Assembly (NCBI GenBank): GCA_937871785.1
Contig: CALMON010000102.1
Coordinates: 1-35,789, forward strand
Origin: an uncultured Granulicella sp.
Lineage (GTDB): Bacteria; Acidobacteriota; Terriglobia; Terriglobales; Acidobacteriaceae
Reading direction: 5' to 3'
DNA: 35,789 nt
The notes beneath the pieces are model-generated. The model ran no database searches. It saw only the letters and a program-made list of their open reading frames with translations, and was not told the DNA's origin. The position numbers were made by a program, and so were the translations under genes. Positions 21,615 through 31,577 of the stretch are shown in pieces (within the stretch, counting starts at the first letter, position 1; each line of letters begins with the position of its first letter).

Positions 21615-22022
21615 ATGCAGACATACCCCTACATTTACCAGTACCTCCCTCTCGTCCTGCAGATCCTGGTCGCCATCGGCATGGCGAGCGGCATGGTGGC
21701 AGCGTCTTATTTTCTGGGCAAGCACAAGCGCTCGCGCACCAAGCTGAGCGCGTATGAATGCGGCATGGACCCAGTCGGCGACGCTCGCGGACGTTTCAGC
21801 GTCCGTTTCTATATGGTCGCCATGTTGTTCATTCTTTTCGATGTAGAAGCTGTCTTCATGCTTCCCTGGGCGGTCATTTACCGCCAGCTTCCCAGCATCA
21901 CCGGCTCACGCATGTTCGGTTTTTGGGAAATGTTCGTCTATATAGGGTTCGTGGGGGTAGGCCTGTTTTATGTCTGGAAGAAGGGCATCCTCAACTGGAC
22001 CAACGACCGGGCCGACCTGTAG
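21615..22022 (+). CDS. nuoA: NuoA, NADH-quinone oxidoreductase subunit A
   Basis: The 135-residue membrane subunit of complex I has three hydrophobic segments and the signature KLSAYECGMDPVGDARGRFSVRFYMVAMLFILFDVEAVFMLPW (about 43-85). That includes the YECG loop and the acidic FDVEAVF helix. NuoA packs next to NuoH and closes the quinone chamber. I chose the ATG at 21615; the frame is open to 21582. It opens the locus. The next gene is nuoC, 17 bases downstream, where nuoB would normally lie. Confidence 0.95.
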   Translation: MQTYPYIYQYLPLVLQILVAIGMASGMVAASYFLGKHKRSRTKLSAYECGMDPVGDARGRFSVRFYMVAMLFILFDVEAVFMLPWAVIYRQLPSITGSRMFGFWEMFVYIGFVGVGLFYVWKKGILNWTNDRADL

Positions 22023-22039
22023 CGCCCAGGAGATTCCGA

Positions 22040-22567
22040 ATGCCCGAAGACACGCAGAATACCCGCCCCATCAACGACACCGTGGCCACGCCGAAAGCGA
22101 TCTTCGGTAAAGACGCCGTGATGGAAGCCATGGCCGACCACATCGCCATCATGGGTCTCGGCCCGCTGATCGTCGACGCCAAGTGGGATCGTAAGGAACT
22201 TACCCTGACAGTAGCGGCGGGCACGGTCGTCAACGCGGCCAAGGCCGCCAAGGCTGCCGGCTACAATTTTCTTGAAGACGTGACCGCCGTCGACTGGTAC
22301 CCCACCGAGCCGCGTTTCCAGATCAGCTATTCCATGCTGAGTCACAGCTTTCGGCAGCGTTTGCGTGTGATTACGCGCCTGAACGAAGGCGAGCAGGTCG
22401 CTTCGATTACGGGCGTCTGGCCTTAGGCGAACTTTTACGAACGCGAAGTTTTCGACCTATTCGGCATCGCGTTCACCGGTCACCCGCGCCTCACCCGCAT
22501 CATGATGCCTGACAACTGGAAGGGCCACCCGCTACGCAAGGACTATCCCGTGGAGGGATACCGCTAA
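22040..22567 (+). pseudogene. nuoC: NuoC interrupted by an in-frame TAG
   Basis: The frame 22040-22567 would encode a 175-residue NuoC (30-kDa, NAD7/30-kDa-subunit partner in the peripheral arm). The first 128 codons fit: FLEDVTAVDWYPTEPRF and QRLRVITRLNEGEQVASITGVWP. A TAG at 22424-22426 follows directly. In the same frame it is followed by [20 protein letters not shown] and then [20 protein letters not shown], the family signature, ending at TAA 22565-22567. Without readthrough the product loses the signature. The reading frame on either side is otherwise intact, so a single substitution or sequencing error explains it. AGGAG precedes the ATG. nuoD starts on the next base after the TAA. Confidence 0.85.
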
Positions 22568-23998
22568 ATGCCAACCACTCTCGACGATCCCAAAGTAGCT
22601 CAGGAAGTCCACAATCCCGACACCGACATTGAGCGTAACAAGGCTCCGCATGCCCGCGACGTCACCGGAGCCACGCTGCACGAGTTTCGCACCGCCGAAA
22701 GCCTGCTGACGGCGAACGCGCCTGCTCCGCTTCCCGGCACGGTCATCGCCGAGGACATGATCGTTCCCGGGGTTGAAGATGTTGTGCTGTCGCACGAGAT
22801 CGGCCATAAGCCGCACGGCTCGGATCCCGTGTCCGACCAGACCATGATCCTCAACATGGGCCCGCAGCACCCGTCGACCCACGGCGTGCTTCGGTTGGTC
22901 ATCGAGCTGGACGGCGAAACGATTGTGTCCATGTCGCCCGATATCGGCTACCTGCACACCGGCATCGAGAAAACCTGCGAGGCCAAGTTTTACGCGCAGG
23001 TCATCCCGCTGACCGACCGCATCGACTACCTGGCGCCGATGACCAACAACACCGCGTATTGCCTGGCGGTCGAAAAGCTGCTCGAGCTTGAGGTCCCGGA
23101 GCGCGCCCAATACCTGCGCGTTCTGTTCAACGAGCTGACACGTCTGCAGTCGCACCTCGTCTGGCTCGGCACCCATGCGCTCGACATCGGCGCGCTCACC
23201 GTCTTCCTCTACTGCTTCCGCGAGCGCGAGGAACTGATGCGCATCTTTGAAGCCGTCAGCGGCCAGCGCATGATGACCAGCTACATCCGCGTCGGCGGTG
23301 TGTCGCTCGAGCCGCCCGCCGGGCTTTATGACACCATTCGCAAGTTTCTTAAGAAGTTCCCTTCCCGCATCGACGAGTATGAGGGGCTGCTGAACAATAA
23401 TCCTATCTGGAAGTCGCGCCTGCAGGGCGTCGGCTATCTTTCGGGCGAAGACGCGGTCGCTTTAGGCGTGACCGGACCGCCGCTGCGCGCTTCCGGCGTC
23501 GACTTTGACGTCCGTCGCGATATGCCGTACTCCGGCTATGAAAAATTTCAGTTCAACGTGCCCACGTCGAAGGATGGTGACGTCTGGGCGCGCTACGTGG
23601 TCCGCATGATTGAAATGCGCGAGTCGATCAAGATCTGCCTGCAGGCGCTCGACGGCATGCCGGAAGGCCGGATCGTCGCAATCGCCCCGAAAATCATCCT
23701 GCCCGACCGCGAGCAGATGAAAACCGGCATGGAATCGCTCATCCATCACTTCAAGATTGTGACTGAAGGCTACGCGGTCCCGGCCGGCGAGGTGACAAGC
23801 TCGGTGGAGTCGCCACATGGCATGATGAACTACTACGTCGTCTCGGACGGCACCACCAAGCCGCTCCGTGTCCACATGCGTAATGCCGACTTCGCCACGC
23901 TGCAGGCGCTCGAAACCATGTGCAAGGGCAAGCTGGTGGCGGATGTGGTGGCGATCATTGGGAGCATCGACATTGTGCTCGGGGCCATCGACCGCTAG
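22568..23998 (+). CDS. nuoD: NuoD, NADH-quinone oxidoreductase subunit D (49-kDa)
   Basis: The 476-residue product is the quinone-site 49-kDa subunit. The family core begins at LNMGPQHPSTHGVLRL (about 94-109). It runs through DIGYLHTGIEK (about 125-135), MTNNTAYCLAVEKL and ESPHGMMNYYVVSDG to DIVLGAIDR at the C-terminus. GYLHTGIEK has Thr where Arg is common. About 90 residues precede the core, against roughly 5-20 in typical NuoD. The extension is hydrophilic and is not a NuoC fusion, because a TAA separates the genes and the ATG has its own GGAGGG Shine-Dalgarno. NuoD needs NuoB for cluster N2; nuoB is not in this window. Confidence 0.95.
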   Translation: MPTTLDDPKVAQEVHNPDTDIERNKAPHARDVTGATLHEFRTAESLLTANAPAPLPGTVIAEDMIVPGVEDVVLSHEIGHKPHGSDPVSDQTMILNMGPQHPSTHGVLRLVIELDGETIVSMSPDIGYLHTGIEKTCEAKFYAQVIPLTDRIDYLAPMTNNTAYCLAVEKLLELEVPERAQYLRVLFNELTRLQSHLVWLGTHALDIGALTVFLYCFREREELMRIFEAVSGQRMMTSYIRVGGVSLEPPAGLYDTIRKFLKKFPSRIDEYEGLLNNNPIWKSRLQGVGYLSGEDAVALGVTGPPLRASGVDFDVRRDMPYSGYEKFQFNVPTSKDGDVWARYVVRMIEMRESIKICLQALDGMPEGRIVAIAPKIILPDREQMKTGMESLIHHFKIVTEGYAVPAGEVTSSVESPHGMMNYYVVSDGTTKPLRVHMRNADFATLQALETMCKGKLVADVVAIIGSIDIVLGAIDR

Positions 23999-24029
23999 CT
24001 ACAGGCGGGGCGTATCGGAAAGGTCAGTT

Positions 24030-24362
24030 ATCGATCCCTTACTGCAGACCGAGCTCTGGACGTCGTGGGCTTCGATGCTGCGGAGCTACTCCGCCGTACA
24101 CGGCATGAGCGCTACCGTGCATGCCGTGGTGGAGGTCAGCGCGGACGAAATACTCTTGCGCGCCGGCCCGCACTGGACACGCTTCAAACATGCTGAAGTC
24201 ACCAGTGACACAGCGCCGCCTTCCATCTTCGTCATAAACGAGGATGGTTCTGTGCGGGTTGGTGATGTCGTGGAAGAGATGGACATGGCGGCTGAGCGCA
24301 TTGCGCGAGAAATGTTGCACAATAGAAGGAGCATGCTGGAACAAGGGAGCTTGCGCACATGA
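24030..24362 (+). CDS. Small hypothetical protein between nuoD and nuoE
   Basis: A frame ending at TGA 24360-24362 encodes a hydrophilic product with SAVHGMSATVHAVVEVSADEILLRAGPHWTRF and an acidic/basic tail (VVEEMDMAAERIAREMLHNRR). The first ATG is at 24075 (95 residues) without a Shine-Dalgarno. A GGAAAGG (24017-24023) instead lies 6 bases before an ATC codon at 24030, and residues from there (DPLLQTELWTSWASM) look coding. So either a rare ATC start is used or a start codon has been lost. The following ORF overlaps its stop by ATGA. I recognise no family. It is probably a real gene of unknown function. Confidence 0.55.
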   Translation: MDPLLQTELWTSWASMLRSYSAVHGMSATVHAVVEVSADEILLRAGPHWTRFKHAEVTSDTAPPSIFVINEDGSVRVGDVVEEMDMAAERIAREMLHNRRSMLEQGSLRT

Positions 24363-24595
24363 ACACGACGCAACTCTACCTGAGCACCGGAATGTTTACG
24401 GTAACTGTGTTTCTGGCCTGGATGTTGACCCGAGCCGATATGCAACAGCAACGGGATTGCCTTCAGGAAAGAAGCTCATGGTGATCTCTGATGCGGCACG
24501 AACGCATGGTAAAAGTTGGAGTTAGGCAAGAGCTCGAATCGCAGCGTCTGTTGAGCGCCGTTTGGGCGCGTTTGAAGGAACAGGAAACACTCTGA
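24359..24595 (+). pseudogene. Small membrane-anchored ORF with in-frame TGA
   Basis: The ATG at 24359 overlaps the previous stop (ATGA). It opens a 41-residue ORF with one hydrophobic segment (MFTVTVFLAWML, about 12-23) followed by ADMQQQRDCLQERSSW, ending at TGA 24482-24484. The same frame then stays open for 36 more codons, with a charged, helical-looking stretch (RQELESQRLL and ARLKEQETL). It ends at TGA 24593-24595, directly before nuoE. The layout suggests one 78-residue anchored coiled-coil protein broken by a stop. Alternatively the short ORF alone is the gene. No family is recognised. Confidence 0.4.
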
Positions 24596-25105
24596 ATGTC
24601 TACCATCGCATCCTCCATCTTCACACCCGACACCGCCGCCCGCTTCGACAAGCTGGCCACCATCTATCCCCTCAAGCGTTCCGCGCTCATTCCCATGCTG
24701 CTCTACGCGCAGGATGAAATCGGTTTCGTCTCCGACGCGGCCGTCGCCGAAATCTCGCAGCGGCTCGACCTGCTCGAGCTTGACGTGCGCAACGTCCTCA
24801 GCTATTACTCCATGCTCCGCACCGTGCCTGCCGGCAAGTACAACGTGCAGGTGTGCACCAATATTTCCTGCATGTTGCGTGGCGGCTATGAACTGCTGGA
24901 CCACTGCAAAAACAAGCTGGGCATCGGCCACAAAGGCGTCACGCCGGATGGCCTGTTCTCCCTGGAAGAAGTGGAGTGCATCGGTGCCTGCTGCTGGGCC
25001 CCGGCCGTCCAGGTCAATTATGACTTCCACGACGACCTCACCCCCGCCAAGATGGACGCCGTGCTCGCCGACTACGCCGCCGGCCGCGGAAAGGACGTAA
25101 AGTAA
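24596..25105 (+). CDS. nuoE: NuoE, NADH-quinone oxidoreductase subunit E (24-kDa)
   Basis: The 169-residue NADH-module subunit binds the 2Fe-2S cluster N1a. The ligands are visible as VCTNISC (Cys 87, 92) and ECIGAC (Cys 128, 132), in the usual C-x4-C...C-x3-C spacing. The helical N-terminus contains IPMLLYAQDEIGFVSDAAV, typical of the family. Length is normal. It starts immediately after the preceding stop and ends in TAATG, overlapping nuoF by one base, so translation is likely coupled. Confidence 0.96.
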   Translation: MSTIASSIFTPDTAARFDKLATIYPLKRSALIPMLLYAQDEIGFVSDAAVAEISQRLDLLELDVRNVLSYYSMLRTVPAGKYNVQVCTNISCMLRGGYELLDHCKNKLGIGHKGVTPDGLFSLEEVECIGACCWAPAVQVNYDFHDDLTPAKMDAVLADYAAGRGKDVK

Positions 25106-26442
25106 TGCCGCAACTCGTTTCACATCCCGATGAAGTCAAGGTCGTTTCCCGCCGCTTTGGCCAGGGCGCGGCGGAAATCGATAAGTACATTGAGCTCGAC
25201 GGCTACAAGGCCGTGCAGATGGGCATCGAGCAGGGTCCGGAGTGGATCGTCAACACCATGAAGGCGTCCGGTCTGCGTGGCCGTGGCGGCGCCGGCTTCC
25301 CCACCGGCATGAAGTGGAGCTTCGTCCCGAAAACAAGCGACAAGCCGAAGTATGTACTGGTGAATGGCGATGAGTCCGAGCCCGGCACCTGCAAGGACCA
25401 CGTCATTTTTCTGCACGACCCGCACGCTGTCATTGAAGGCACCATGATTGCCGGGCTGGCCATCGGGGCAAAAATGGGCTTCATCTATCTGCGCGGCGAG
25501 TACCGCTATCTGCTGAAGATCGTCGAAAAGGCCGTGGCCGACGCCTACGCAAAAGGCTTTCTGGGCAAGAACATTTTCGGCAAGCAGGGCGTCGATTTCG
25601 ACATCATTACACAAACCGGCGCGGGGGCCTACGAGGTCGGCGAAGAGTCGGCGCTCATGGAATCCCTTGAAGGCAAGCGCGGCGTGCCCCGCATTAAGCC
25701 GCCGTTCCCCGCGGTCGTCGGCCTGTACGGCGGCCCGACGGTCATCAATAATGCAGAAACGATCGCCAACGCCCCGCACATTCTGCTGATGGGTGGCGAG
25801 GCCTACGCCAAGCTCGGGTCGGAACGCAACGGCGGAACCAGGCTCTTCGGCATTTCCGGCCATGTCGAGCGGCCCGGCGTGTATGAACTGCCGATGGGCT
25901 ACTCGCTGCGCAAAGCCATCTACGAAGTCGCCGGCGGCATCAAGGATGGCAAAAAACTAAAGGCCGTGGTTCCCGGCGGTTCGTCCTGCCCGGTGCTCAA
26001 AGCCGATGAAATCGATTGCGGCCTCGACTTCGACCAGATGGCGAAAGCCGGCACGATGCTCGGTTCGGGAGGCATTGTGGTGCTCGACGAGTCCGTGTCC
26101 ATGGTCGAGTTCGCCCTGCGCACCATCGCGTTTTACCAGCATGAGTCCTGCGGCTGGTGCATTCCCTGTCGCGAAGGTACGGACTGGCTGAAAAAGACCC
26201 TGACCCGTTTCCACGCGGGCGGCGGGAACAAGAAGGACATCGACAACATTCAGTACCTGGCTGAAAACATGATGGGCCGGACGTTCTGCCCGCTCGGCGA
26301 CGCCGCGGCCATGCCGACGCTCGGGTTCATCAAGAAGTTCCGCTCGGAGTTCGAAGAATATCTTGAAGGTGTCAGGGTGGAGCATCCCCTGATCCACATC
26401 AAGCCTGTTGGCGAGCTGGCTATGGCCGGAGCCGGGCATTGA
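25105..26442 (+). CDS. nuoF: NuoF, NADH-quinone oxidoreductase subunit F (51-kDa)
   Basis: The 445-residue flavoprotein subunit binds NADH, FMN and the 4Fe-4S cluster N3. Motifs are GLRGRGGAGFPTGMKW (about 56-71), VNGDESEPGTCKD (about 89-101), TGAGAYEVGEESALMESLEG (about 172-191) and the N3 ligands in ESCGWCIPCREG (about 348-359) with a distal Cys in RTFCPLGD (about 396). All expected ligands are present, so electron input looks functional. Length matches the family. The stop overlaps the TTG start of the lipoprotein gene. Confidence 0.97.
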   Translation: MPQLVSHPDEVKVVSRRFGQGAAEIDKYIELDGYKAVQMGIEQGPEWIVNTMKASGLRGRGGAGFPTGMKWSFVPKTSDKPKYVLVNGDESEPGTCKDHVIFLHDPHAVIEGTMIAGLAIGAKMGFIYLRGEYRYLLKIVEKAVADAYAKGFLGKNIFGKQGVDFDIITQTGAGAYEVGEESALMESLEGKRGVPRIKPPFPAVVGLYGGPTVINNAETIANAPHILLMGGEAYAKLGSERNGGTRLFGISGHVERPGVYELPMGYSLRKAIYEVAGGIKDGKKLKAVVPGGSSCPVLKADEIDCGLDFDQMAKAGTMLGSGGIVVLDESVSMVEFALRTIAFYQHESCGWCIPCREGTDWLKKTLTRFHAGGGNKKDIDNIQYLAENMMGRTFCPLGDAAAMPTLGFIKKFRSEFEEYLEGVRVEHPLIHIKPVGELAMAGAGH

Positions 26443-26909
26443 TCCTCCGTGGCGGCACCGTCGGGCCCATGCTCGCAGTGTGTTTGCTCGCCGTTGGCTG
26501 CAAGGCCAAGGAACTTGGCGCGCATGTGTCTCCGACGCAGGCCACGCAGGTTGATCCGACCTGGATCACAGCCACGCGCAACTGCTGGCCCGATCTGTCG
26601 AAGGCGCATAAGGACAAGTTCATCGCCAATTCCCTGGCCGACCCGATCGCCTTCCGCGGTGCGTTCGCCGGCTTCGCCAGCTACTCCGACGCGCAGGTTG
26701 AATCCATTGCCGCGCACAATGTCGGCGACTCCCCCGACCCTGACACCTCCAGCTTGCGCAACGCGAATGCCCCGCTGCTCACCCGCACACAGGCCCTTGC
26801 GCCGCCCGCCACGCGTACCGCCAACGCGCCCGATACGCACGACGCCGCGCAGATTCCCCCCGACACCCTTTGTGCCATACACCCCGGAACCCCGGTAGGA
26901 TTCAGGTAG
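26439..26909 (+). CDS. Small lipoprotein inserted between nuoF and nuoG
   Basis: The 156-residue product has a short signal with a lipobox-like LLAVGC (Cys 21), preceded by one Arg and a hydrophobic core. The mature part has LSKAHKDKFIANSLADPIAFRGAFAGFASYSDAQV and a Pro/Ala/Thr-rich second half. Starting at the TTG (26439), which overlaps the nuoF stop by four bases (TTGA), gives a 20-residue signal; the ATG at 26469 would leave only ten residues. Family unknown. The other long frames here are less plausible because they lack a signal or composition bias. It is co-oriented and tightly packed with nuoF and nuoG. Confidence 0.6.
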   Translation: MILRGGTVGPMLAVCLLAVGCKAKELGAHVSPTQATQVDPTWITATRNCWPDLSKAHKDKFIANSLADPIAFRGAFAGFASYSDAQVESIAAHNVGDSPDPDTSSLRNANAPLLTRTQALAPPATRTANAPDTHDAAQIPPDTLCAIHPGTPVGFR

Positions 26910-26915
26910 ATCCCT

Positions 26916-29264
26916 ATGCCAGACGTAACACTCACCGTTGACGGCCGCAAGATTACGGCCCCCGCAGGCACCCTGCTTATCGAGGCCTGCAAGTCCGCAG
27001 GTCTCGAGATCCCCGCATTTTGCTATTACCCCGGCCTGTCGTTGCAGGCCGCCTGCCGCATGTGCGTGGTGCGGATAGAAAAAGTGCCCAAGCTTGCGAC
27101 CGCCTGCACCACGACGGTGTCTGAAGGTATGGTGGTGCAGACCGAAACGCCTGAAATTCAGCAGGCTCGCAAGGCGACGCTTCAGCTGCTGCTCGGCAAC
27201 CACCCGCTCGACTGCCCCGTGTGCGATGCCGGCGGCGAGTGCGAGCTGCAGGATATGACCTTCAAGTATGGCGCGGCTGACAGCTTTTATGCCGAGCCCA
27301 AGAATCACCGCGAAGAGCAAAAATGGTCGCCGGTGGTCTACTTCGATCGGCCGCGCTGCATCCTTTGTTATCGCTGCGTGCGCATGTGCGGAGAGGGTAT
27401 GGACGTGTTCGCGCTTGGCATCCAGAACCGCGGCTCTTCTTCCGTCATCGCGCCCAATGTACCGTCGCAGCTTGCGGGCCTGCTTAACTCCGGCGAAGAC
27501 CAGGCGCAGCTTGACTGCGAACAATGCGGCATGTGCATCGACGCCTGCCCGGTCGGCGCGCTGACTTCCGGCACGTACCGTTACAAGACGCGCCCGTGGG
27601 AAATGAATCACGTCGCTACCGTCTGCACGCATTGCGGCGATGGCTGCAAGACGACTCTCGGCGTCCGCTCCGTTACGGACGGCTCAGAGATTATGCGCGC
27701 CGACAATCGCGACAAGTCCGGCATGAACGGCGACTTCCTATGCAACAAGGGTCGGTATGCGTTCGATTTCGCCAACTCCACTGATCGCCTGACCGCTCCG
27801 CTGGTTCGAAAGGACGGCAAGCTGACGCCCGTCTCGTGGGAAGAAGCCCTGAACTTCGCCGGCAAGCGGCTTCGCGAACTCCGAGACCAGCGTGGACCAG
27901 AAAGCATCGGCGTCATCGGCTCCAATCGCACCACCAACGAAGAAAACTACCTGCTACAGAAGTTCGCGCGCACGGCGATCGGCACGAACAACATCGACCA
28001 CCACCGCACGGCCGATTACGTCGGCTTTGCCGCCGCTCTCGCCGGCCGCGTCGACGCGACCGCCTCGCAGCGCGACGTGCTTTCCGCTCCCGCCATTCTG
28101 CTCGTCGGGGGCGACCCCACGCAACAGGCGCCGCTGACGGCGTGGAACATCCGCAGCGCCGTTCGCCTGAACCGCACACGCCTGTACGTGGCCAATCACC
28201 AGGACATCAAGCTCAAGCGGCAAGCCAAGGCCTTCGCGCAGGTCGCTGAATTCGGCTACGGCGCATTTATCGATTCGCTGGCCGGCTCCGAGGCGTTCGC
28301 CACGGCCGTACGCGCTGAAGAAAAGCTGGTCGTGCTGATCGGCAACGAGCTTCGCGGCGCTGACCTCGCAAAACTGATCGCGGTGTTTCCCGCCGCCAAG
28401 GTTGCCCTGCTAGCCGACTACGCGAACTCCCGCGGCGCTGCCGATATGGGCTTGCTGCCCGACGCCCTTCCCGGCTATCAGGCGCTCGGCTCGTCTGCTG
28501 TCGCCGCCGAGTACGATGCCCCTGCCGCTCCGGGCAAGAACCTCGTCGAAATGTTCGACGCTGCGGCCGCCGGTCAGCTTGCCGCCCTCTACGTAGTCGG
28601 GTCGAACCCGGTCACGCGCTACAATGTCGATCCCGCGACTCTCAAAGCCACATTCCTGATCGTGCAGGACATGTTCCTGACCGAGACAGCCATCCTCGCC
28701 GATGTTGTTTTTCCGTCCTCGAACCTGTATGAGAAGGCAGGTTCGGTCACGAACCACTACGGTGATTTGCAGCTTGTGTCTAAAGCCGGCGACCGCGCCG
28801 GTGTGCGCTCCGATTTCGAGCTGATCGTCCGGCTCGCCGACAAATTTGGTCATGACGTCAAGCAGCTTGTGCCGTTCGGCAAGCGCCAGGCCGGTATACG
28901 CGCCGACATGGGCCAGACCCGCGGCGCGCAAGCGGGAGAAGCCGATCGCCATGCCGTTTGGCTCACCGCGAACAGCATGGAGCCGAAGCTTTCGCCCTTT
29001 GACCCCTTCGCGATTCTTGACGAGATCCAGCGCCTCGTTCCCGGCTACGACAAGCTGCTGCGGCTGCAGCTTCTAAGCGGCAACGACCAGCATCTCGCTC
29101 CTGCCGCGGGTTCTCTCGTACAGATAGCCAACCGCAACGACCTTGTGTTGCCGTCAAACGACACGCTCTTCACCTCTGGCTCGCTCACGGCGTACTCGCC
29201 GATGCTGCAGGACGTGCAGCGGCACGAGTCACGCGAAGTCGCCGATCGTCTTGCGGCCGACTGA
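26916..29264 (+). CDS. nuoG: NuoG, NADH-quinone oxidoreductase subunit G (75-kDa)
   Basis: This is the 782-residue Fe-S and molybdopterin-oxidoreductase-like subunit. N-terminal ligands: 2Fe-2S N1b (Cys 36, 47, 50, 64); N5 with His 96 and Cys 100, 103, 109; N4 region Cys 148, 151, 154, 158 and Cys 201, 204, 207, 211 (CEQCGMCIDACP). An additional CTHCGDGC set (237-244) with a later FLCNKG Cys matches the extra cluster N7 of some bacteria. The C-terminal catalytic-like domain has no molybdenum ligands expected. Length is typical of the shorter bacterial NuoG. No frameshift is seen. Confidence 0.96.
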   Translation: MPDVTLTVDGRKITAPAGTLLIEACKSAGLEIPAFCYYPGLSLQAACRMCVVRIEKVPKLATACTTTVSEGMVVQTETPEIQQARKATLQLLLGNHPLDCPVCDAGGECELQDMTFKYGAADSFYAEPKNHREEQKWSPVVYFDRPRCILCYRCVRMCGEGMDVFALGIQNRGSSSVIAPNVPSQLAGLLNSGEDQAQLDCEQCGMCIDACPVGALTSGTYRYKTRPWEMNHVATVCTHCGDGCKTTLGVRSVTDGSEIMRADNRDKSGMNGDFLCNKGRYAFDFANSTDRLTAPLVRKDGKLTPVSWEEALNFAGKRLRELRDQRGPESIGVIGSNRTTNEENYLLQKFARTAIGTNNIDHHRTADYVGFAAALAGRVDATASQRDVLSAPAILLVGGDPTQQAPLTAWNIRSAVRLNRTRLYVANHQDIKLKRQAKAFAQVAEFGYGAFIDSLAGSEAFATAVRAEEKLVVLIGNELRGADLAKLIAVFPAAKVALLADYANSRGAADMGLLPDALPGYQALGSSAVAAEYDAPAAPGKNLVEMFDAAAAGQLAALYVVGSNPVTRYNVDPATLKATFLIVQDMFLTETAILADVVFPSSNLYEKAGSVTNHYGDLQLVSKAGDRAGVRSDFELIVRLADKFGHDVKQLVPFGKRQAGIRADMGQTRGAQAGEADRHAVWLTANSMEPKLSPFDPFAILDEIQRLVPGYDKLLRLQLLSGNDQHLAPAAGSLVQIANRNDLVLPSNDTLFTSGSLTAYSPMLQDVQRHESREVADRLAAD

Positions 29265-29294
29265 ACTCCGGTTGTACCCCACGAAGGGCGGAAT

Positions 29295-29534
29295 ATGGAA
29301 CTCGGTAAACGCGGGCGTTTGATTCTCCACTGCCTCACTCTTTGCGGCATGATCGTGTGCTTGTTCTTCATATTTCGTCATTCGCCGTATCGTTCCACTT
29401 GCACCTACACGTTCTACGGTCTTCTTCTCGTAAACGCGAGGCTTAGCTATAAGAATGCCTTAAGGCGCCGTACACCGAGCCCGTTGGTCGGCTTGTCTTT
29501 AGAGTCTCCTGCAACCGCTAAGGAAAGACCTTAA
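29295..29534 (+). CDS. Small membrane protein between nuoG and nuoH, hypothetical
   Basis: This is a 79-residue ORF with one or two hydrophobic segments (LILHCLTLCGMIVCLFFIF, about 9-27; TYTFYGLLLVN, about 38-48) and basic tails. A weak purine-rich GGGCGG precedes the ATG. It has cysteines but not the CxxCxxCxxxCP repeats of NuoI, so it is not a nuoI remnant. No family is recognised. It fills a 273-base gap and could be chance. Confidence 0.35.
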   Translation: MELGKRGRLILHCLTLCGMIVCLFFIFRHSPYRSTCTYTFYGLLLVNARLSYKNALRRRTPSPLVGLSLESPATAKERP

Positions 29535-29537
29535 TTC

Positions 29538-30632
29538 GTGACCCACTTTTCCCCATTCCTGATCTTCCTCCTCATCACGATCGTCAAGATCGCGGTCGTG
29601 CTCGTCATTACACTCACGGCGGTCGCCTATACGGTGCTGCTCGAGCGCAAGGTCCTCGGCCGCATGCAGAACCGCTGGGGGCCATCGCGCGTCGGTCCGT
29701 TTGGCTTGCTGCAGCCGCTCGCCGACGGGATCAAGCTCTTTCTCAAAGAAGACCTGATGCCCCTGGCCGTAGAGCGCCCGCTCTTTGTGCTTGCTCCGGT
29801 GATTGCGCTGGCGTGCGCGCTTACCTCGATCGCGGTCGTTCCTTTTGGCGCGCCAGCCTACTATAAGGGCGTCAATCTCACGCAGATTTCCGACATCAAC
29901 ATCGGTCTTCTGGTCGTTCTGGGTGTCACGAGTATCGGCGTTTACGGCATCGCGCTCGCCGGCTGGAGTTCGAACAACAAGTATTCGCTATTCGGTAGCC
30001 TGCGTGCCACCGCGCAGGTCATCAGCTACGAGCTCGCGCTTGGGCTATCGCTGGTGGGGGTTGTCATGCGGGCGGGCTCGCTACGCCTGCGCGACATCGT
30101 CGACTCGCAGGCAGCGCACGGTATGCGGTCCTGGAACATCTTCGGCGGCCTGCAAATTCTGGCTTTCTTCATCTACCTTATGGCTGCGTACGCCGAAACC
30201 AATCGCTCGCCCTTCGATCTGCCGGAAGCCGAATCCGAGCTCGTGGCGGGTTACCACACAGAATATTCCTCGATGAAGTTTGCCATGTACTTCATGGCCG
30301 AATACGCCAACATGATCACCGTTGCCTGCGTCGCGACGCTCATGTTCTTCGGCGGCGCGTCTTCCCCGTTCGGCCATCTTTTCGACCGCGTTTTCAGTTT
30401 CAACATGCATTCCTTGAGCGGCATCCTGCTTTCGACCCTGATCTCCATCTTCTGGTTCGTGTTCAAGGTGTTTTCGTTCATCATGCTTTACATCTGGGTG
30501 CGCGCTACGGTGCCGCGCTTCCGCTATGACCAGCTCATGGGCTTCGGCTGGAAATTCCTTCTTCCCGTCGCTATGGCCAACATCCTGTTTACCGCGCTGG
30601 CGCTCACGTTCTTCGGGCACTCCAACACCTAG
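29538..30632 (+). CDS. nuoH: NuoH, NADH-quinone oxidoreductase subunit H
   Basis: The 364-residue membrane subunit forms the quinone-access part of the membrane arm. Motifs are ERKVLGRMQNRWGPSRVGP (about 36-54), LLQPLADGIKLFLKE (about 56-70) and AETNRSPFDLPEAESELVAGYHTEYSSM (about 218-245), the latter being the acidic third cytoplasmic loop near the quinone site. Eight hydrophobic segments are present. Translation starts at GTG 29538; GGAAAG lies about 10 bases upstream. nuoI, normally next, is absent; nuoJ starts 129 bases further. Confidence 0.96.
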   Translation: MTHFSPFLIFLLITIVKIAVVLVITLTAVAYTVLLERKVLGRMQNRWGPSRVGPFGLLQPLADGIKLFLKEDLMPLAVERPLFVLAPVIALACALTSIAVVPFGAPAYYKGVNLTQISDINIGLLVVLGVTSIGVYGIALAGWSSNNKYSLFGSLRATAQVISYELALGLSLVGVVMRAGSLRLRDIVDSQAAHGMRSWNIFGGLQILAFFIYLMAAYAETNRSPFDLPEAESELVAGYHTEYSSMKFAMYFMAEYANMITVACVATLMFFGGASSPFGHLFDRVFSFNMHSLSGILLSTLISIFWFVFKVFSFIMLYIWVRATVPRFRYDQLMGFGWKFLLPVAMANILFTALALTFFGHSNT

Positions 30633-30680
30633 ACCCTCGCGAGTTCGACCGACCGAGATGGACCTGTCTGCGGGAGCACG

Positions 30681-30699
30681 GCGAAGGATCTGCTTTTCC
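30681..30699 (+). repeat. REP-like repeat copy in the nuoH-nuoJ gap
   Basis: GCGAAGGATCTGCTTTTCC closely matches the inner core of the inverted repeat at 10141-10231 (17 of 18 bases plus one extra T). It lies in the 129-base nuoH-nuoJ gap, where nuoI would be expected. The gap has no ORF of note. Confidence 0.55.
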
Positions 30700-30761
30700 A
30701 ATCTTCCGAAGAAGGTACAATCGCAGTACACGAAAAGCCTTAAAGGACCACTGCCGCTCTC

Positions 30762-31268
30762 ATGCAACTTGCCCTGTTTATCATCTTTGGTTTGCTGGCC
30801 GTCGCCGGAGCGCTTAACCTGCTCTTCCAGCGCCATCCCATCAACAGTGCCCTGTCCCTGGTCGTGGTGATGATGTCGCTTGCCGTTCTGTACTGGTCGC
30901 TGGGCGCGGAGTTCCTGGCCGCCGCCCAGGTGATTGTGTATGCGGGCGCGGTGATGGTGCTGTTCGTCTTCGTTGTCATGCTGTTGAATGCCGGGGAAGA
31001 AGAGCGCACCCACGGCTCGCGGGTGGCGTATATTGCCGGCATTCCCGGAGCCGTCGCAATTTTCGGCCTGCTCACCTATGTGTTTCTGCGCAGCAAGGGA
31101 GGCCTCGGCACGACGCAAATTGGCGGCGACTTGTCGAACGTCAGCTCCAACATCCGCGACATTTCACACATGCTGTTCACCTCCTTGCTGCTGCCGTTTG
31201 AGGTCACCAGTATTCTGATCCTGATCGCGATCCTCGGCGCGGTCGTGCTTGCGCGAAAGGAGGTGTAG
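30762..31268 (+). CDS. nuoJ: NuoJ, NADH-quinone oxidoreductase subunit J
   Basis: The 168-residue membrane subunit has the typical five hydrophobic segments. Motifs are HPINSALSLVVVMMSLAVLYWSLGAEFLAAAQVIVYAGAVMVLFVFVVMLLN (about 25-76), the pi-bulge helix of the family. A short hydrophilic loop precedes the last two segments. The start ATG is at 30762 with AAAGGA a little far upstream. nuoK begins 6 bases after its stop. Confidence 0.95.
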   Translation: MQLALFIIFGLLAVAGALNLLFQRHPINSALSLVVVMMSLAVLYWSLGAEFLAAAQVIVYAGAVMVLFVFVVMLLNAGEEERTHGSRVAYIAGIPGAVAIFGLLTYVFLRSKGGLGTTQIGGDLSNVSSNIRDISHMLFTSLLLPFEVTSILILIAILGAVVLARKEV

Positions 31269-31274
31269 GCCGCC

Positions 31275-31577
31275 ATGGTTCCCATCGCCTACTATCTCAT
31301 TCTCGCCGCCATCCTTTTCTGCATCGGCATCGCCGCTTTTTTGATCAAGCGCAACGTCATCACCATTTTTATGTCCATCGAGCTGATGCTGAACGCCGTC
31401 AACCTGACGTTTGTCGCCTTTGCTCACATGTGGCATCAGGTTTCGGGCCAGATCTTCGTCTTCTTCGTTATGGTCGTCGCCGCCGCCGAAGCCGCGGTTG
31501 GCCTCGCGATCATCATCGCGCTTTTCCGTGCGCGTCAGACCCTCAACGTCGACTCCGTCAACCTCATGAAGAACTAG
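31275..31577 (+). CDS. nuoK: NuoK, NADH-quinone oxidoreductase subunit K
   Basis: The 100-residue membrane subunit has three hydrophobic segments and the two membrane glutamates of the E-channel: [11 protein letters not shown] (Glu about 36) and [12 protein letters not shown] (Glu about 72). Length is standard. A strong AAGGAGGTG lies at about 31257-31265 within the end of nuoJ, so translation is likely coupled. nuoL follows after a 44-base gap. Confidence 0.97.

Follow-up and report, generated by a model that had tools for sequence, protein, structure and literature searches.

NuoC, the 30-kDa subunit of complex I, belongs to the families PF00329 and TIGR01961. In the genus studied here, nuoA, nuoC and nuoD are adjacent in the relatives G158 and G174, and the same order is found in the locus that we describe; whereas none of the other 49 PF00329 rows of the genus has an internal stop, here an in-frame TAG replaces one residue. 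In-frame stops occur in draft genomes and in young pseudogenes, and our case resembles them: one base is substituted in a frame that is conserved, and the same draft has a few more stops of this kind. It differs in that this nuoC shows neither a second lesion nor an indel, and nothing points to decay. An in-frame TAG in conserved genes is also what amber suppression and stop reassignment have in common with this locus, but the draft genome differs from such systems in that no UAG-reading tRNA was found, RF1 is kept, and TAG is the most frequent terminator. According to the introduction of PMC8629427, all known bacterial cases of stop reassignment affect UGA. A literature search of partial coverage returned nothing on this nuoC.

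The window, the whole stretch of 35,789 nucleotides that we analyzed, is contig C102 of a 3.95-Mb Granulicella-like draft genome with a GC content of 62%; the draft consists of 269 contigs and is 82.94% complete and 3.26% contaminated. Most of the 27 named relatives in a NuoD search are Granulicella, Edaphobacter or other Acidobacteria. The nuoC frame occupies positions 22040-22567 of the forward strand and ends in its regular terminator, TAA (22565-22567); codon 129 (22424-22426), directly after the residues SITGVWP, is TAG. The two pieces on either side match PF00329 separately: codons 1-128 (22040-22423) cover positions 2-77 of 124 (E 1.5e-10), and the last 46 codons (22427-22564), which bear the family signature, cover positions 79-123 (E 1.7e-22). 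Against TIGR01961, the first piece spans positions 8-77 of 122 and the second 79-121. Because the profile positions of the two pieces join with just one missing, a single codon has become a stop without a frameshift. The 46 codons after the stop also match, on their own, NuoC chains of solved complex I structures in the PDB with E-values down to 9.5e-19; judging by these matches, their likeness to NuoC is not due to chance. As expected of a NuoC, then, the frame covers the family profile and lies between nuoA and nuoD, and it is interrupted by the TAG at 22424. Our profile matches and frame reading agree with the sequence-only reading, which had reported a TAG at codon 129 with a continuous NuoC frame on both sides and a normal TAA at 22565. 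It had also held that the signature is lost without readthrough, and this too is so: beyond the stop, the frame has ATG, GTG or TTG only at 22502 (an ATG, 22502-22504), 22505 and 22550, all past the signature, so that re-initiation cannot restore it.

The neighbors of nuoC on the same strand, nuoA (21615-22022; PF00507) and nuoD (22568-23998; PF00346, TIGR01962), are both intact and both end in TAG, which also terminates nuoH, nuoJ and nuoK. Frames for nuoE, nuoF, nuoG, nuoH, nuoJ, nuoK, nuoL and nuoM are likewise intact with the expected families, and a nuoN-like frame runs off the window edge. The earlier statement that the rest of the locus looks intact thus holds for nuoA, nuoD-H and nuoJ-M but not for nuoB or nuoI. 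We found nuoB outside the window operon, on a separate contig of the same draft (C136; L122:7866-8516, forward strand); the operon itself (21615-31577) reads nuoA-C-D without nuoB and has no space for nuoI between nuoH and nuoJ, an arrangement that is the same in G174. In nuoD, about 90 residues precede the NuoD domain (22568-22840), with TIGR01962 beginning at residue 92.

PF00329 matches are present in 26 of the 28 genomes of the genus, the draft included, and come to 50 rows, 49 of which are open (24 of the same high-scoring type and 25 weaker); the exception is the nuoC of the window. The comparison with close relatives that the sequence-only reading had proposed therefore shows a same-type nuoC open in 24 other genomes of the genus. 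A second, different type of NuoC is present in 19 of the 28 genomes, but no second match was found in the draft assembly (83% complete). The two genomes with no NuoC match are G302 (67% complete) and G285 (94% complete). In a sample of 300 genomes of the family, 292 have a PF00329 match; among the matches listed from this sample there is one other stop, a TGA in a nuoC row of G204 (G204:C10:87683-88207). The best other DNA segments for nuoA-nuoE in the 28 genomes of the genus are about 73-87% identical and so do not give a same-species comparison.

At the column of the TAG, 36 distinct relatives of at least 60% identity, rows under this value having been left out, carry Ser (25) or Ala (11); in 10 of the 36 the codon is one for serine from which a single substitution gives the stop. 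In the same alignment, none of the 31 otherwise invariant columns after the stop is altered, and one of 28 is altered before it. The frame, the profiles and the alignment reveal no second lesion, indel or frameshift in nuoC, and residues unique to this genome in nuoA (one), nuoD (two), nuoE (one) and nuoF (none) are within the range of the relatives. Because the invariant columns after the stop are unchanged and the unique residues of these nuo genes stay within that range, constraint appears to have held until very recently. We see neither the further lesions nor the relaxed constraint of a pseudogene; decay of nuoC seems poorly supported, and the stop event, if real, is on this evidence recent.

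We consider it probable that the TAG is either an error of one base in the draft consensus or an allele of a minority. The nuoC in which this single-base substitution sits would be normal in all other respects and would have worked until very recently, the substitution having entered the fragmentary draft either as an error of the consensus or as a minority allele that was picked up; the codon in the living population would encode a small residue, Ser or Ala as in the relatives, and full-length NuoC would be made for complex I. We infer that most cells of the organism do not carry the substitution. An error is favored because the stop lies in the only NuoC found in a fragmentary draft and because the draft has further in-frame stops, although the excess of these rests on unequal tests. 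Since the draft has a single NuoC match, the only complex I seen would be affected if the truncation were fixed. The sequence-only reading had offered three options: a live gene has changed by one base, the stop is suppressed, or the sequencing is at fault. A single substitution in a gene still under selection is supported, while suppression is weakened by the 41 tRNA genes, none with a CUA anticodon, by the presence of RF1 and by TAG being the commonest terminator.

Because serine coincides at the TAG columns of nuoC and of an ABC ATPase gene, we searched for further in-frame stops in a sample of 1,058,414 bases of the draft, which includes the window and amounts to 27% of the genome. Scanning it for coding potential yielded 71 candidates without a start within 8 codons, 18 of which were picked by hand and tested by Pfam. 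Six stops lie in frame inside a protein: the one in nuoC and, beyond it, five in four genes (four TAG and one TAA). The ABC ATPase gene (L183:8022-8723, reverse strand, contig C200), identified by Pfam and by an alignment within the genus, is the one row with an in-frame TAG out of 40 in the draft; the TAG column holds Ser in 16 and Thr in 3 of the 19 relatives drawn from the best 20 of 28 rows, an alignment that left out two second copies with a stop. These copies, from G201 and G236 (54-56% identity), are the 2 of 27 other rows that carry a stop, and the best rows of 25 other genomes of the genus are open. Five residues of the draft's ABC ATPase differ at otherwise invariant columns, two before the stop and three after it (relatives at most one and two), which would be expected of a noisy or decaying copy; nuoC has no such pattern. 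A YkuD (L,D-transpeptidase-like) frame (L120:11118-13346, forward strand, contig C226) contains two TAGs, the first at a column with Asp in 20, Ser in 3 and Glu in 1 of 24 relatives and the second in a variable linker shortly after a run of 13 T. The best orthologue rows of this gene in the genus are open, and 1 of 30 other rows, a second copy in G214, has a stop. The remaining two stops lie in outer-membrane receptor genes on the reverse strand (L198:17215-19812 and L239:5573-7819): a TAA in the Plug domain of a TonB-dependent receptor, where the stretch matched only itself, and a TAG in a beta-barrel gene, where two paralogues were matched with Gln and Asn.

Other candidates fell away. Two ABC genes that appear to be frameshifted are split by short runs of N (L184:3915-4356 on C129 and L185:10594-11044 on C124). 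The TAG in a weak MFS row (C158), one that overlaps a full-length row, was left uncounted. The candidate at L115 13967 has no Pfam match on either side, that at L189 658 is the end of ribosomal S17 ahead of L14, and that at L183 11445 is an ordinary gene end. For ten more candidates in the draft, Pfam found no domain spanning the stop, and 12 ACR_tran rows contain no stop. Antisense frames and gene ends dominated the output of a codon-score scan and of an initial pass by homology, and later scans replaced both.

As a point of comparison, 1.2 Mb of the one-contig relative G174 gave 75 candidates, and among the 10 of these that were tested we found no in-frame stop inside a protein. Six stops versus none has p ~0.011, and four versus none, leaving aside nuoC and the ABC ATPase, p ~0.048, with tests that were unequal and partly pre-selected; counted as genes, three versus none has p ~0.10. 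Homopolymers of 10 or more number five in the draft and none in G174. When the draft was aligned to genes of G174 over 213,189 bases, seven stops appeared and only that in nuoC was kept by eye; the reverse alignment over 206,001 bases gave nine, none of them kept. Of the stops that were discarded, some lie where a frame ends or ahead of a start, and others in matches that are antisense-like or of low identity. Split alignments number seven in the draft, five of them at N runs, and six in G174. The apparent excess of substitution-type stops would fit consensus errors or mixed strains. Several observations speak against an error, however: the surrounding nuo genes show no general noise; we already knew of two of the six stops, and the candidates tested were picked by hand; three of the other stops fall in the two receptor genes and the variable linker, where real loss would be unsurprising; and better-quality genomes also have stops, in the second copies of the ABC gene (G201, G236) and of YkuD (G214) and as the TGA in nuoC of G204.

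After error or a minority allele, the order of likelihood is a real mutation and then readthrough. A real and recent nonsense mutation would leave a NuoC of 128 residues that lacks the last third of the family domain, with this complex I lost or strongly reduced. We regard this as possible but unlikely. It is in keeping with the position of the stop well inside a 35.8-kb contig, one substitution away from a serine codon that 10 of 36 relatives use there, and with the two genomes of the genus that have no NuoC match, for which nuoC may be dispensable or only missing from the assemblies. A back-up NuoC is also common in the genus, given the second type in 19 of 28 genomes, but none was found in this draft, and the lack of a second lesion or of any changed invariant column after the stop, together with the intact nuo genes elsewhere in the window, argues against such a mutation. 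Another possibility is that NuoC is naturally split, with a second polypeptide made by re-initiation past the stop. The stop divides the family domain neatly, with conservation on both sides of it; yet no ATG, GTG or TTG is in frame before 22502, which is beyond the signature, and none of the other 49 rows in the genus has an internal stop, so we give this idea almost no weight.

Partial amber suppression, in which an unseen suppressor tRNA or near-cognate decoding would insert an amino acid at the TAG, perhaps serine, and so yield some full-length NuoC, strikes us as improbable. Five of the six in-frame stops are TAG, two of the four aligned TAG columns are mostly Ser in relatives (those of nuoC and the ABC ATPase), and the YkuD gene has two TAGs in one otherwise continuous frame. 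Under a codon-usage null in which 55% of random nonsense mutations would produce TAG and 13.7% of the TAGs would derive from Ser codons, however, these counts have p-values of 0.16 and 0.09, so that neither the TAG bias nor the serine bias is significant. A serine suppressor, suggested by the two Ser columns, is weakened by the next aligned column, which is mainly Asp, and by the fourth, which is variable; one of the six stops, moreover, is TAA. The sequence-only reading had proposed looking for an amber suppressor tRNA, and none of the 41 tRNA genes found in the draft (83% complete) has a CUA anticodon. A further tRNA could be missing, since the set found in this incomplete genome lacks, by our count, five of the usual tRNAs (His, Ile, Ala-TGC, Leu-CAA and Pro-GGG). 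On the other side, RF1 (prfA) is intact (514 bits), and TAG is not avoided as a terminator: it ends 326 of 827 called genes, including five of the nuo genes, compared with 265 for TGA and 236 for TAA, and 78 of 205 long frames in the codon-score scan. Terminator use, the presence of RF1 and the tRNA set lead us to reject genome-wide recoding of TAG, and the restriction of the bacterial reassignments cited above to UGA likewise counts against suppression. There is no good sign that the cell reads through the TAG in nuoC, and the notion is poorly supported. Less probable still, and a long shot, is a lineage in which a tRNA encoded in the part of the genome that was not assembled suppresses amber codons weakly by inserting serine, with TAG tolerated at the serine sites of nuoC and the ABC ATPase while remaining the commonest terminator.

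If the TAG in nuoC is an error, as we think probable, it is a reminder to consult the reads before giving a biological meaning to a single internal stop of a draft. Were it real, the one complex I seen in this genome would have been lost naturally. The locus would tell us something about how bacteria come to decode stop codons only in the unlikely event of suppression, and a serine suppressor of the kind just described, if true, would show a GC-rich bacterium with a full-sized genome at an early point in the decoding of UAG, when the codon is still ambiguous.
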